Origin: Chitinophaga pinensis
Lineage (GTDB): Bacteria; Bacteroidota; Bacteroidia; UKL13-3
NCBI GenBank assembly: GCA_945860865.1
Contig: CAMARW010000002.1
Span: 186,001-250,000 of the forward strand
DNA length: 64,000 nucleotides
Direction of reading: 5' to 3'
Numbering within the stretch: position 1 is the first letter of the stretch; each line of letters starts with the position of its first letter. Of this stretch, positions 20,025 through 24,890 are shown one piece after another. The position numbers and the translations under genes were made by a program. Below the pieces are notes generated by a model, which did not search any database, was not told the DNA's origin, and was given only the letters and a program-made list of their open reading frames with translations.

Positions 20025-22028
20025 TTAGCCTGCTTTGGGAAAAGTAAAATAAAAACTAGAGCCTTTACCCTCTTCGCTTTCTACCCAAATATTACCCCCA
20101 TTTTTCTCTACAAATTCTTTGCACAACATCAAACCCAATCCGGTTCCCTTTTCATTGGCAGTGCCTTGCGTGCTAACATTTGCATGGGCCGTAAAAAGCG
20201 TTTCTAATTGCTCTGGGTTCATACCAACCCCATTATCAATTACAATTATTTGGTGAAACAAATCTTCCTCTTGCGATAAAATGCTAATAGAACCGCCCTC
20301 GGGTGTAAATTTTAAAGCATTAGACAATAAATTTCGGATGATTAAATGCACCATATTTTCATCGGCCATAATACAGGCATCTTCATCGGTATCATTGGTT
20401 AAAGTTATACGTTTTTGTTGGGCCATGCTAAATAGCATTTGGCAATTTACCTCTGCTAATTTATTTAGGTTAACTTTTTTAGGTTCAACCTGCACCCCCT
20501 TAATTTGACCAGCAGCCCAAACCAATAAATTTTCTAACAAATCAATAGTATTTTGAACCGAAGCAGCCACCTGCTTACTCATTTCAGAAGAGGATGTTTC
20601 TTTATAGTTGGGCGAAGAAACTAAGTCGAAATAAAGCTTCATGGTAGTTAAGTTGTTTCTTAAATCATGCGAGATGATGGAAAAAAACCTGTCTTTAACT
20701 TGATTTAATTGATCTAATTGGGCTCGCTGAAGTTCTATTTCGGAGTTTTTTAGTCCTAAATCAGACATGCCTTGTTTCAGCTTTTTATTGATTATTCTAT
20801 TCTGAGAAATAAAGAAAATGAAAAGCAAAATGAGCAAGGCCATTAGCACAGAAAGTGCAACAAAAAAATTCTTTTCTTGCTTGGTTTGTTGCAAATCTAG
20901 GCTACGCAATTTTTGCTCTTTATCCATCAATTCTATTTGCGCTTGCTTTTTTTCGGTTTCGTATAACAACTGCAAATCAGAAGTTTGTTTAAGAATAGAA
21001 TCATTAAAAAGCGAATCTTTGAGTTCTGCACTTAGCGACCGAAAGGCCTTAGAGGTGCCAGGATCTTTTAAACTTTTATATACTTCAGATAGACCTTGAT
21101 AGGCTTCTTCCAATTCAATTTTTAAACCGGCAGGCTTTGCCAAACCAATACACTTTCTATAGGCTATATTGGCCTTTTCGTAGTCTTTTAAAACTACATA
21201 AATGTTTGCCATTCCTATCAAACTACTTACTTCTAAAGGCACAATTTGCAGTGGACTTACCAATTCATAGGCTGCCTGGTAATAATTTAAAGCCTCTTCT
21301 TGTTTATTTTCTGATAATAAAATAGCGGCCATATTAATTAAAGCAGCCGCTTCTCCCGGTGTATTTTTGAGCTCTTTGTATATACGTTGTGCATTTTTGT
21401 AATACTCAACAGCCTTCTTATACTGATTTTGGCGTGCGTGCAGAGCGCCCACCCGCTCGTAAATATTTAATTGCCTAAACTTATCATTTTGCTTTTCAAA
21501 TAAGCTAAGCGCCTTCAAGTTAAACTCAATAGCGCGCGAAAAGTTATTTTGTTTATAGTACAAATCTGCTAGCGCTATGTAAGTATTTAAACTCCCTTCT
21601 GGGTTATTTAATACCTCAAAAACACGTAAGGATTCGAGGTAGCGCTCAAGCGCTTTTGTAAAGTCGCCTTGAGCATGAAAAACAGTAGCCAATAAATATC
21701 CTAATTCAGCCTTTTTAATGGGCAAATTTGCCATTTCAGCTACCGTTAAAGCTTCTACTACTAATTCTTTAGCATGACCATACCTGGCACCCAAAATTTC
21801 TAATTGAGCCAACTGTTTGTATGCTTCTAATTGAATAATAAAGATACCTTTTTGTTTGGCTTGAACCAAAACTTGCTCAAAAATTATTTGGGCTTGGTCA
21901 GATTGACCATATCTTTTATCCATTCCCTTAGCTAATTGCAAGGATAACGATAGACTATCTACTTGCGCATTCGCTGGGAAGGCAGCAATAAAACAAAAAA
22001 CAAAAATACTAACTATGAATTTAGGCAC
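20025..22028 (-). CDS. TPR-containing sensor histidine kinase
   Basis: A 667-residue sensor with a signal peptide (1-22), tetratricopeptide repeats across about 30-340, a transmembrane helix at 388-409, a short coiled coil, then a HisKA domain with the phospho-acceptor H454 in IISHDLRN. The HATPase domain has N and G boxes (DNGVGM, GTGLGLMLCKEFVEKNGG). The periplasmic TPR sensor plus single TM is a common Bacteroidota design. The start is GTG at 22028, overlapping the stop of the response regulator by one base (TAGTG), so the pair is co-translated. Confidence 0.94.
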   Translation of the reverse strand: MPKFIVSIFVFCFIAAFPANAQVDSLSLSLQLAKGMDKRYGQSDQAQIIFEQVLVQAKQKGIFIIQLEAYKQLAQLEILGARYGHAKELVVEALTVAEMANLPIKKAELGYLLATVFHAQGDFTKALERYLESLRVFEVLNNPEGSLNTYIALADLYYKQNNFSRAIEFNLKALSLFEKQNDKFRQLNIYERVGALHARQNQYKKAVEYYKNAQRIYKELKNTPGEAAALINMAAILLSENKQEEALNYYQAAYELVSPLQIVPLEVSSLIGMANIYVVLKDYEKANIAYRKCIGLAKPAGLKIELEEAYQGLSEVYKSLKDPGTSKAFRSLSAELKDSLFNDSILKQTSDLQLLYETEKKQAQIELMDKEQKLRSLDLQQTKQEKNFFVALSVLMALLILLFIFFISQNRIINKKLKQGMSDLGLKNSEIELQRAQLDQLNQVKDRFFSIISHDLRNNLTTMKLYFDLVSSPNYKETSSSEMSKQVAASVQNTIDLLENLLVWAAGQIKGVQVEPKKVNLNKLAEVNCQMLFSMAQQKRITLTNDTDEDACIMADENMVHLIIRNLLSNALKFTPEGGSISILSQEEDLFHQIIVIDNGVGMNPEQLETLFTAHANVSTQGTANEKGTGLGLMLCKEFVEKNGGNIWVESEEGKGSSFYFTFPKAG

Positions 22029-22741
22029 TAGGGTAATTTGTTTTCAACCAGTTTAAACCCAGAACCATGAATATTAATTATCTCAATTTGAGGATTCATT
22101 TTAAGCAACTTACGCAATTTATTGATATACACATCTAAATTTCTAGCGGTATAAAAATCGTCTCTACCCCAAACATTAAGCAACAAACTATTACGCGTTA
22201 ATAATTCATTTTTATTTTTCACAAATAGTCGCAGCAAATCGCATTCTGTGCTGCTTATTCTCTTTTCTTCAGCCCCAAAATATATAACATGATTGGGCAT
22301 ATCTATTTGCATTCCGGCCAATTCATAGATTTCTTTTTTCACTATTAATTCGGGAGCAGACTGATTAGATCTTTTCAAGATGGCACGCACACGCGCCACC
22401 AATTCTTGGGTACTAAAAGGTTTGGTTATATATTCATCTGCACCTAAAGTAAATCCTTTTAGCTTATCATCCTCTTTGCTATTGGCAGTTAAAAAAACCA
22501 AAGGTATAAATGCATCCATCTCTCTTATAATGCGCCCTGCTTCAAAGCCATTTTTTTTGGGCATATTCACATCCATTAGAATCAAGTCAAATTTTTCTAC
22601 TTTAAACAACTCAATTGCTTCCATACCATCTTTGGCTATATGGGTTGTAAATCCAGATAATTTCAAATTTTCTCGCAATAAATTAGCTAAAGTATTATCA
22701 TCCTCGGCTATTAAAATATGTGGTAATTTTTCTTGATTCAT
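22028..22741 (-). CDS. OmpR-family response regulator
   Basis: A 237-residue two-domain regulator. The receiver has the acidic pair in AEDDN (13-14), phospho-acceptor D57 (LILMDVNMPKKNG) and K107 (YITKPFS). The C-terminal winged helix ends with LDVYINKLRKLLKMNP and INIHGSGFKLVE, typical of OmpR/PhoB DNA-binding domains. It is the first gene of the two-component operon with the downstream TPR kinase. A perfect 16-bp palindrome 10 bases upstream of the ATG may be its operator. Confidence 0.96.
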   Translation of the reverse strand: MNQEKLPHILIAEDDNTLANLLRENLKLSGFTTHIAKDGMEAIELFKVEKFDLILMDVNMPKKNGFEAGRIIREMDAFIPLVFLTANSKEDDKLKGFTLGADEYITKPFSTQELVARVRAILKRSNQSAPELIVKKEIYELAGMQIDMPNHVIYFGAEEKRISSTECDLLRLFVKNKNELLTRNSLLLNVWGRDDFYTARNLDVYINKLRKLLKMNPQIEIINIHGSGFKLVENKLP

Positions 22742-22933: not shown

Positions 22934-23824
22934 ATGAAAATCCCTTCCTTCATAATATTACTAAGAATCCCCTTTTCATTTTATTTGTTGCCGGTTTTTT
23001 TATTCGCCGTTTCCTTTGCACCTAGCATAAATATTGAACAAACAACACATCTTTTTATCCTATTACACTTGTTAGTTTATCCGGCTAGTAATGGATTTAA
23101 TAGTTACAACGACGAAGACACAACTAGCATTGGAGGCTTAGAAAACCCACCACCCCCAAACCTATGGCTATTGTTGGCTAGTATGGCTTTAAACATAGCC
23201 GCCATCGCTTATAGTTATTGGATCAGCCCTGTTTTATGCCTTTTAATAAGTGCTTATATTTTGGTTTCTATTGCCTATAGTTGGAAACCCATTCGCTTAA
23301 AAAAATATCCCCTAATTAGTTTCTCTACAGTTGTTATTTTTCAAGGTTTTGTAAGCTATACCCTTACTTATTTGTTTTGTCAGAAAGCAGGTTACTTAGA
23401 AACATTAATCCAACCCAACTTTTTAGTTCCAGCAATTGTAAGTAGTTTAATGGTTGCTGGGGCCTACCCTATGACGCAAATATACCAACATAAAGCAGAT
23501 GCCAAAAGTGGAGATTTAACGCTTAGCAGATTACTCGGAATTAAAGGCACTTTTGCATTTTCAGGTGTTATGAATTTATTAGTTTTTTTGTTGATGGCCT
23601 ACTTTTTAACTACCCATAATCAGTCACACTTATTTTATTTGTTTATTATTTTTATTTCGCCGCCAATTAGCTTTTTTCTATGGTGGTTTCTTAAAGTTAA
23701 ACAAAATACTAAGGAAGCCAATTTTAGGTATACTATGATGTTAAACAAAATTTCATCCATATCGTTGATATGCTATTACCTATTGGTAATATTATTAAAA
23801 TACAATAGTGAGCTACCTATATAA
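22934..23824 (+). CDS. UbiA-family prenyltransferase
   Basis: A 296-residue membrane protein with about eight or nine hydrophobic segments. The first aspartate-rich motif lies in GFNSYNDEDTTSIGG (54-68); the second is YQHKADAKSGDLTLSRLLG (about residues 184-202). Both resemble the NDxxDxxxD and DxxxD motifs that bind Mg-prenyl diphosphate. UbiA enzymes attach isoprenoid chains to aromatic acceptors. Its 3' end overlaps the type III polyketide synthase gene by 17 bases, so the likely acceptor is the polyketide phenol made by that enzyme. It lacks the hallmarks of CyoE, MenA or UbiA proper, as far as I can tell. Confidence 0.85.
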   Translation: MKIPSFIILLRIPFSFYLLPVFLFAVSFAPSINIEQTTHLFILLHLLVYPASNGFNSYNDEDTTSIGGLENPPPPNLWLLLASMALNIAAIAYSYWISPVLCLLISAYILVSIAYSWKPIRLKKYPLISFSTVVIFQGFVSYTLTYLFCQKAGYLETLIQPNFLVPAIVSSLMVAGAYPMTQIYQHKADAKSGDLTLSRLLGIKGTFAFSGVMNLLVFLLMAYFLTTHNQSHLFYLFIIFISPPISFFLWWFLKVKQNTKEANFRYTMMLNKISSISLICYYLLVILLKYNSELPI

Positions 23825-24890
23825 CATTAAAACCTGTTTGCCAACCCATAAATTATCGCAAGAAGATTTGGGTAAATACATGAGCGAGCAGTATGATTTT
23901 AACGAAACAGAAAAATCTAGGCTAATGCTAATGTATAAGCGCAGCGGCATTGATTTTAGGCACAGCTGTTTGCCAGATTTTAATGCTGCCGAACCCATTA
24001 AAAAACTGTTTGTTGATGGAAGAGAGCCCGGTATTTCTGAACGCATGCATGCATTTTTTGAGTATGCCGTTCCATTGGCCACGCAAGCAGGAATGGGGGC
24101 TTTAAAAGACGAAACGCCAACGCATTTAATTAGTGTTTCTTGCACAGGCATGGCTGCCCCAGGATTAGATTTAATGCTGGTAGAAGCAATGCAATTACCA
24201 TTAAACATTCACCGTAGCTCGGTTAATTTTATGGGCTGTTATGCCTATTTTCATGCTTTAAAAATGGCGGATGCTTTTTGTAGTCAGCATGCAGATGCTA
24301 AAGTACTTATTGTGGGAATAGAATTGTGCACCATACATTTTAATAAAATTAAAGACCCAGACCAAATAGCTGCTAATTTATTATTTGGAGACGGTGCAGC
24401 AGCTTGCTTAGTAAGTGCACAAAAACCAGCTGTGAATCAATATTTTAATATCGATTCTTTTTACTCCAAAATAGTGCCGCAGGGCAAATCAGATATGGCA
24501 TGGCGCATAGATGAGACAGGCTTTTTAATGACTTTAAGTGCCTACATTCCCCAATTGCTTAAAAGTGCTATTCACCCCATTATCACTGAAGCCTTACAAC
24601 TCAAAAACAAGCATATAAAAGATATAGAGCATTGGGGCATTCACCCAGGTGGAAGAAAGATTCTTGACTACCTGAACGAAGAGCTTGGATTAACCGCAAC
24701 AGATTTACGTGCCAGCTATGAAGTTTTAAAACAGGTGGGCAACTTATCTAGCGTAACACTGCTGTTTGTGTTAGAAAATATTATCAATAGAGAGCAGTAT
24801 CAACCTAATCAGCTTTGTTTTGCGGCTGGCTTCGGACCAGGTTTAACGGTTGAAACCATGATATTGAATGCAACTAAGCATTCTGTTTAA
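23808..24890 (+). CDS. Type III polyketide synthase (chalcone synthase-like)
   Basis: A 360-residue thiolase-fold enzyme of usual length. The catalytic triad is visible: Cys144 in [10 protein letters not shown], His279 in [12 protein letters not shown] and Asn312 in GNLSSVT. The motif [11 protein letters not shown] precedes the active site, and [13 protein letters not shown] is the FGDGAAA region. Such enzymes condense malonyl-CoA on acyl-CoA starters to pyrones, resorcinols or phloroglucinols. Start is GTG 23808, inside the last codons of the UbiA gene. Its 3' end overlaps the convergent AAA+ gene by 17 bases. Product unknown; a prenylated phenolic lipid is a reasonable guess from the UbiA partner. 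Confidence 0.93.

Follow-up and report, generated by a model that had tools for sequence, protein, structure and literature searches.

What would be made by a pair of overlapping genes encoding a UbiA-fold membrane prenyltransferase and a type III polyketide synthase (PKS)? Such a pair occurs in a stretch of 64,000 nucleotides from Chitinophaga pinensis (assembly GCA_945860865.1, contig CAMARW010000002.1, positions 186,001 to 250,000), called here the window. An earlier reading, made from the sequence only, had observed that no methyltransferase, hydroxylase or flavin adenine dinucleotide (FAD) oxidase adjoins the pair, and had proposed a minimal two-enzyme route to a prenylated phenolic lipid. 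None adjoins here indeed, but an orthologous methyltransferase (MT) and FAD oxidoreductase are encoded on another contig of the same genome, C1. We consider it fairly probable that UbiA and PKS make up the first half of a pathway with four enzymes, the MT and FAD half lying at another site in the genome. The pathway probably builds an isoprene-tagged phenolic lipid, product and donor being proposed by analogy with characterised systems, and a prenylated phenolic lipid would stay the most likely product class. On our best reading this would be a Bacteroidota counterpart, often dispersed, of the actinobacterial agq pathway for prenylated alkyl-methoxyhydroquinones.

A second locus with methyltransferase and oxidoreductase genes

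In four relatives (loci L073, L074, L076 and L077), the UbiA-PKS pair is followed by genes for a class I MT, a FAD oxidoreductase, a short-chain dehydrogenase/reductase (SDR) and a flavin-reductase-like protein. A photolyase-related gene is present in three of these four clusters, and in some relatives a helix-turn-helix (HTH) protein of the DeoR/HTH_11 type is encoded beside it. Using the MT and the FAD protein of L073 as queries, we retrieved from the host genome the genes C1:433215-433901 (51% identical, E 4e-75) and C1:432077-433204 (52% identical, E 4e-125), respectively. These two genes are adjacent (C1:432077-433901) and unlinked to UbiA-PKS: the PKS gene lies about 78 kb from the nearer end of its contig, and MT-FAD is on a different one. 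Because the MT-FAD run sits on contig C1, we regard the window as carrying one half of a dispersed cluster. The host genome holds a complete agq-type gene set, that is, a type III PKS, an MT, an oxidoreductase and a UbiA protein in one genome.

The MT scored 136.7 bits against PRK06202, below the cut-off of 243. The FAD protein has its best score, 101.7 bits (cut-off 158.8), with the geranylgeranyl reductase superfamily, UbiH-like hydroxylases coming lower in the list. Since that superfamily gives the top score, the FAD protein, assigned below to an oxidation step, could instead reduce the prenyl chain.

In the host stretch L220, the MT, FAD, SDR and flavin reductase genes form a consecutive run on one strand. 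SDR and flavin reductase, which come after MT-FAD in the host and also lie inside the full clusters of relatives, were considered as core enzymes and not kept; the flavin reductase occurs in 46 of 62 genomes, many of them without the PKS. A peptide methionine sulfoxide reductase gene (PF01625, L220:7063-7749) follows this run on the same strand.

Joint presence and dispersal of the four genes

Do the four genes occur together in other species? Among 64 genomes of the order, PKS matches are found in 37 and UbiA matches in 37, counts that take in remote relatives of the PKS and UbiA proteins lacking a motif. PKS genes linked to an ICMT-type methyltransferase and motif-less UbiA genes were separated by profile cut-offs (PKS E<=1e-58, UbiA E<=1e-50) that we chose after the scores had been seen. 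The resulting profile covers 62 genomes, without G051 and G054, the latter of which has UbiA and PKS. UbiA and PKS are both present in 30 genomes and both missing from 31, with UbiA only in a single genome (G009). PKS and MT co-occur in 29 and are jointly missing from 32, one genome (G013, 81% complete) having PKS only; for PKS and FAD the figures are 29 and 31, with one of the two only in G013 and in G041 (65% complete).

Linkage was counted in 28 of the 30 PKS genomes, leaving out G013, which has no MT or FAD, and G001, which has several partial copies. The genes for PKS, MT and FAD share one site in 7 genomes; in 14 (host included) MT-FAD is separate from PKS, and in 7 each of the three has its own site. 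Some of the split genomes have short contigs, and some of the splits could be contig breaks. In G037, the contig with PKS also carries MT and FAD, at distances of 122 and 191 kb.

The pattern extends to the phylum. In a sample of 395 genomes, all 25 with a strong UbiA match (E<=1e-77, host excluded) also have a strong PKS. The earlier expectation that UbiA and PKS stay next to each other in relatives holds within the order, where they are adjacent on the same strand in all 31 genomes with a strong match to both, but only in part outside it: in these 25 genomes the two genes are on the same strand in 7, divergent in 12 and unlinked in 6.

A UbiA profile scan returned at least 586 matches, of which the best 80 loci were kept, including loci of the genus and family to which the window belongs. 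The stretches fetched around these loci, some of which are cut by contig ends, contain UbiA with PKS, MT and FAD in 39 cases, with PKS only in 10, with PKS and MT in 9, with PKS and FAD in 1 and with none of the three in 21. Concerning the latter group, 18 genomes were searched genome-wide and PKS was found elsewhere in 18 of 18; outside these 18 are L104 (apparently G009, with no PKS match), L100 (apparently G001, with a PKS) and L148. All four genes are in close proximity in Belliella, Flammeovirga and Mucilaginibacter. One UbiA-PKS-MT-FAD locus, L175, comes from a bin that bears the name Azovibrio restrictus (Pseudomonadota); it may be Bacteroidota DNA binned in error, or may have been transferred.

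On a Deinococcus radiodurans plasmid we observed an operon-like PKS-MT-FAD run without UbiA (L243:4998-7957). The host MT is a clear relative of the MT in this run (28% identical); the host FAD protein is barely like the Deinococcus FAD protein (E 1e-4) and matches that of Roseomonas at E 1e-17. No UbiA homologue was found in plasmid records at E<=0.01.

Identity of the prenyltransferase and the polyketide synthase

Alignments and trees were made on subsets of homologues, with 48 UbiA and 39 PKS rows in the alignments and 34 and 29 rows in the trees. The UbiA protein (P0001) scores 43.4 bits against PF01040 in Pfam, above the cut-off of 34.2. Its AlphaFold2 (AF2) model (pLDDT 94.5) has as top structural match the Archaeoglobus fulgidus UbiA (4tq4, Z 22.7, 3.5 Å across 274 residues), with further matches to Aeropyrum pernix UbiA (4od5, Z 21.3), UBIAD1 (8djk, Z 18.8) and DGGGP synthase (Z 18.2). 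The model has the helical membrane fold of the UbiA superfamily (solved UbiA proteins, Z 21-23), and these are fold matches only, a sequence search of the PDB with P0001 giving no match at E<=1.

P0001 is neither MenA nor CyoE. No NCBIfam model scores it above 25.1 bits (cut-off 494), and the MenA-type model gives 20.9 against 346; across the 48 family members NCBIfam matches are weak as well (lowest E-value 3e-12). The host genome encodes four PF01040 proteins, P0001 included, the other three being CyoE (TIGR01473, 260.9 bits, above cut-off), MenA (TIGR00751, 243.6, above cut-off) and a PRK12872-type prenyltransferase (266.6 against 288). In the tree, the family forms its own clade (95/99), with MenA, CyoE and E. 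coli UbiA outside it, the reference branches being long and partly unsure. With NCBIfam scores far under the cut-offs and a separate clade, we rejected an identity as MenA, CyoE or 4-hydroxybenzoate UbiA. A grouping with MenA or CyoE, which the sequence-only reading had named as the objection to watch for, was therefore not seen.

Canonical UbiA proteins carry two Asp-rich motifs, NDxxDxxxD and DxxxD. Examples are given in a passage of PMC4044012. The protein had been credited with both, which holds only in part: residues N56, D60, D62 and D189 are invariant, but motif I is atypical and motif II lacks the first Asp. Motif I reads NSYNDED...SIGG (N-S-x-x-D-x-D) and motif II reads QIYQHxxD...GD (Q-x-Y-Q-H-x-x-D), where a Gln replaces the first canonical Asp. 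The motif I core N-x-[YF]-x-D-x-D is present in 80 of 80 UbiA homologues, and Gln185 in 79 of 80. In the family, residue 2 of motif I is mostly Ser and residue 9 is Ser or Pro. It is apparently an uncharacterised subfamily with an altered metal site.

The second protein (P0002) scores 63.9 bits with Chal_sti_synt_N and 83 bits with Chal_sti_synt_C in Pfam, both above cut-off, and its top PDB sequence matches are Mycobacterium tuberculosis Pks18 and Mycobacterium marinum 7cb3. Many type III PKSs match its AF2 model (pLDDT 94.0) almost equally (Z 46-48.5): Ectocarpus PKS-I at 48.5, the M. marinum PKS at 47.3, Pks18 at 47.2, and plant enzymes and Pks11 at 47.1 or less. P0002 is thus a type III PKS, a thiolase-fold subunit with a Cys-His-Asn triad; the triad, already recognised in the sequence-only reading as Cys144-His279-Asn312, is intact and invariant in 17 and in 39 aligned sequences. 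A DpgA-like function was discarded, the NCBIfam DpgA model giving 139.9 bits, far under its cut-off of 425.

Features of the locus

The overlap of the two genes and the GTG start of the second, both noted earlier, were confirmed from the open reading frames (ORFs), which lie in the expected frames. GTG start and 17-base overlap recur in three homologues of the same genus (L061, L062 and L063), and PKS homologues with an ATG start align from about the same residue, which makes the GTG start credible. Spacing in 28 mechanically chosen ORF pairs is exactly -17 in 10 (our own included); at the extremes of the other 18, the genes overlap by 115 bases or stand 80 bases apart; the long overlaps are partly an artefact of the ORF caller, which picks the first possible start.

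Of 35 loci in the order, 29 have a homologue of the response regulator (Table 1) as a divergent neighbour of UbiA, loci without PKS among them. A scan found 7 promoter-like sites, against 8.7 expected, and no terminator. In six loci of genus g8, a gene for a protein with both a BD-FAE (esterase-like) and a Por secretion-tail domain stands directly 3' of the PKS, the domains having been tested in L070 and L071.

Table 1. Coordinates of the genes, motifs and catalytic codons discussed (window positions, or positions in the locus named)
Feature	Position	Strand	Basis
UbiA-fold membrane prenyltransferase, 296 aa (P0001)	22934..23824	+	PF01040, AF2 fold, separate clade
UbiA Asp motif I, NSYNDEDTTSIGG	23099..23137	+	N56, D60, D62 invariant in 48 aligned members
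UbiA motif II, QIYQHKADAKSGDLTLS	23477..23527	+	Q182, H186, D189 invariant in 48 members; Gln185 at canonical Asp position
17-base overlap, UbiA end and PKS start	23808..23824	+	ORF coordinates; shared by 9 of 27 other loci
Type III polyketide synthase, 360 aa (P0002), GTG start	23808..24890	+	Chal_sti_synt N and C, AF2 fold
PKS catalytic Cys144 codon	24237..24239	+	Invariant in 17 and in 39 aligned sequences
PKS Trp232 codon	24501..24503	+	Invariant in 39 sequences; aligned with Trp of Pks11 'MGWDV' by way of L087; Leu in Pks18
PKS catalytic His279 codon	24642..24644	+	Invariant in 17 and in 39 aligned sequences
PKS catalytic Asn312 codon	24741..24743	+	Invariant in 17 and in 39 aligned sequences
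Response regulator (Response_reg and Trans_reg_C), divergent from UbiA, candidate regulator	22028..22741	-	Domains
TPR-histidine kinase, partner of response regulator	20025..22028	-	Domains
Protein with BD-FAE and Por secretion-tail domains	L070:6287-7804; L071:10560-12548; also L072, L075, L094, L095		Directly after PKS
Motif-I-less UbiA homologues	L082:8766-9623; L083:6584-7444; L084:7410-8270; L085:3634-4494; L086:7076-7936
G009 UbiA	L081:3590-4480		Syntenic position; PKS, MT, FAD none found in genome

UbiA homologues left without the other three genes

Five genomes of genus g13 (G053, G055, G058, G059 and G061) have no PKS of this type, no MT and no FAD, and keep a UbiA homologue; G053 retains only a PKS of the ICMT-linked type. 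These five UbiA proteins have lost Asp motif I and are nested beside intact g13 members in the tree. Downstream of them are the SDR and flavin reductase in 5 of 5 loci, the photolyase-related gene in 3 of 5 and the HTH protein in 4 of 5 (L084 is at a contig edge). The ratio of non-synonymous to synonymous substitution rates (dN/dS) is 0.15-0.24 for the motif-less g13 UbiA genes (10 pairs), against 0.06-0.16 in 6 of 7 pairs of intact UbiA genes; the remaining pair, whose members are very close, gave 0.41. The SDR gene beside them gave 0.05-0.13 (6 pairs). The motif-less g13 genes are under purifying selection and are not simple pseudogenes; they may be repurposed UbiA genes. In G009, UbiA motif II is altered, with K for Q185 and GI for GD. 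UbiA seems to lose its prenyltransferase features once PKS, MT and FAD are gone.

A proposed pathway and its alternatives

How could the four enzymes work together? The type III PKS would condense a presumed long-chain acyl starter with malonyl-CoA units. The core so formed would be a phenolic lipid, with an alkylresorcinol as the most probable, though still conjectural, kind of ring. The class I MT and the flavoprotein, which resembles UbiH and geranylgeranyl reductases, would then carry out methylation and oxidation towards a methoxy-hydroquinone or quinone, as suggested by homology and by the pkq, hid, srs and agq systems. The membrane UbiA protein would move a prenyl group onto the phenolic core; both the order of the steps and the prenyl donor are conjectural here. 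The end product would be a prenylated phenolic lipid of the membrane, possibly redox-active.

The four-enzyme pathway draws support from the gene identities, the intact triad, the UbiA fold, the joint presence or absence of the four genes, the split locus and the loss of UbiA motifs where the other three genes are missing. Several observations weigh against it. Fisher values for joint presence run from 3e-14 to 7e-17 with no correction for kinship, and they overstate independence because the genomes are related and the cut-offs were set after seeing the scores. G013 has UbiA-PKS without MT and FAD, G041 has FAD without the other three and G009 has UbiA without PKS, MT and FAD, the first two of these genomes being incomplete as stated above. 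The phylum count covers strong UbiA matches, next to which 129 genomes match UbiA more weakly. At E<=1e-30 the PKS profile has hits in 179 of the 395 phylum genomes (ICMT-linked type included), against 26 with a strong UbiA, and PKS-MT-FAD runs without an adjacent UbiA occur in G001 (L090; UbiA is elsewhere in G001) and on Deinococcus and Roseomonas plasmids. Because PKS matches far outnumber strong UbiA matches and such runs exist, UbiA looks like an add-on to a wider PKS-MT-oxidoreductase core. Moreover, a UbiA motif II without its first canonical Asp could mean a different donor or reaction, and the core could be a pyrone, as discussed next.

In one of the rival explanations, the PKS would make an alkylpyrone (a lactone) and not a resorcinol, and UbiA would O-prenylate it. 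Both Pks18, which we take to be an alkylpyrone enzyme, and Pks11, titled as one in the PDB, are among the close solved structures. However, the MT and FAD partners suit ring methylation and oxidation to a quinone, and Trp232, invariant in 39 sequences, aligns with a Trp of Pks11. A Trp at ArsB position 281 has been linked to resorcinol formation in a passage of PMC9927152. ArsB and ArsC were not among the matches listed in the PDB sequence searches, so that this marker was reached indirectly, through the Pks11 alignment, and Pks11 is itself named a pyrone synthase; the alignment hints at resorcinol chemistry without proving it. We hold a pyrone product to be unlikely, if worth bearing in mind. 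Nor do we expect, with nearly the same degree of doubt, that UbiA is non-canonical in the sense of using another diphosphate donor or catalysing another membrane reaction on the lipid. Its nearest folds are archaeal UbiA proteins that bind prenyl diphosphates, and Asp60 and Asp62 of motif I and Asp189 of motif II are invariant in 48 members, which must be set against the Gln185 substitution in 79 of 80 homologues, the weak NCBIfam matches reported above for P0001 and the 48 members and the fact that enzymes with this fold can also transfer phosphoribosyl groups (8j8j, Z 16.9).

Could UbiA and PKS share an operon and serve separate pathways? G009 and the five g13 genomes have kept UbiA although this type of PKS is absent from them, and elsewhere there are PKS-MT-FAD runs that lack UbiA. 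Yet the five g13 proteins lack Asp motif I and the G009 protein has an altered motif II, and all 25 strong-UbiA genomes of the phylum have the PKS, six of them at unlinked sites, so that this explanation seems improbable to us. The minimal two-enzyme route, where PKS and UbiA alone would yield a prenylated phenol with neither methylation nor oxidation, would suit the adjacency of these two genes and no others, here and in the same-genus loci with both. It is not borne out by the presence in the same genome of orthologous MT and FAD genes at one unlinked locus, present or absent jointly with PKS over 62 genomes with few exceptions, and we give it very little credence.

What would a four-enzyme pathway mean for these bacteria? 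It would be a conserved lipid pathway, apparently uncharacterised, present across Bacteroidia and often scattered, where a cluster-by-cluster reading shows a lone PKS or a lone 'UbiA'. With its four parts known, the product can be predicted, and the prediction tested in genera that are in culture. Many Bacteroidia are considered to depend on menaquinone, beside which the pathway may bring to light a phenolic lipid or quinone of the membrane. We can speculate, with considerable reserve, that many Bacteroidia make a second, prenylated and polyketide-derived (hydro)quinone, which would carry electrons in the membrane under certain conditions or act as an antioxidant, and which would be made by a subfamily of UbiA whose second metal site departs from the canonical one.

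Comparison with known systems

We found no paper describing a UbiA-PKS-MT-FAD set in Bacteroidota in the open-access literature, as judged from listings and passages. Type III PKS regions in Bacteroidota are reported in PMC10752948 and PMC11225308, whose passages name no UbiA; an alkylresorcylic acid-like cluster in a Moorea associate appears in a passage of PMC5006271, and PMC7093587 does no more than list agq-like clusters of Streptomyces.

Within the same order of bacteria, the PKS and ICMT pairs (L087-L089) also involve a type III PKS. They differ from the present system by a separate PKS clade (100/100), an ICMT-type methyltransferase (PF04140, L087) and the absence of a neighbouring UbiA.

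The pkqABC, srsABC and hidABC systems resemble ours by enzyme type, each combining a type III PKS with a methyltransferase and an oxidoreductase that lead from an alkylresorcinol to a quinone or hierridin. According to passages of PMC10896814, PMC9927152 and PMC8086630, characterised cores of this kind yield alkylresorcinols and their methylated or oxidised derivatives, and a role as respiratory electron carrier is described for the pkq-type polyketide quinone of mycobacteria (PMC9927152, PMC10896814). Unlike our gene set, the core set in these sources has no prenyltransferase, although one is reported in a single hierridin-like cluster of R. mediterranea (passage of PMC8086630).

The closest counterpart is probably agq. 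The agq cluster of Actinoplanes missouriensis, reportedly described by Awakawa et al. in 2011, is said to encode a PKS, AgqA, and a UbiA-like O-prenyltransferase, AgqD; presumably it also holds MT and oxidoreductase genes, which fits a methoxyhydroquinone product. In the passages available, AgqD O-prenylates an alkyl-methoxyhydroquinone (PMC3227686) and the alkylresorcinols made by AgqA undergo prenylation and hydroxylation (PMC10896814). A table in PMC7587189 gives a comparable run of UbiA, MT, acyl-CoA dehydrogenase and PKS genes in Micromonospora endolithica, where the acyl-CoA dehydrogenase contrasts with the FAD partner of our host, similar to UbiH and geranylgeranyl reductases. The likeness to agq, drawn from its description, would lie in a type III PKS that supplies an alkylresorcinol for hydroxylation and for prenylation by a UbiA-like enzyme; the difference lies in the phylum and in the dispersal of the host genes over two sites.

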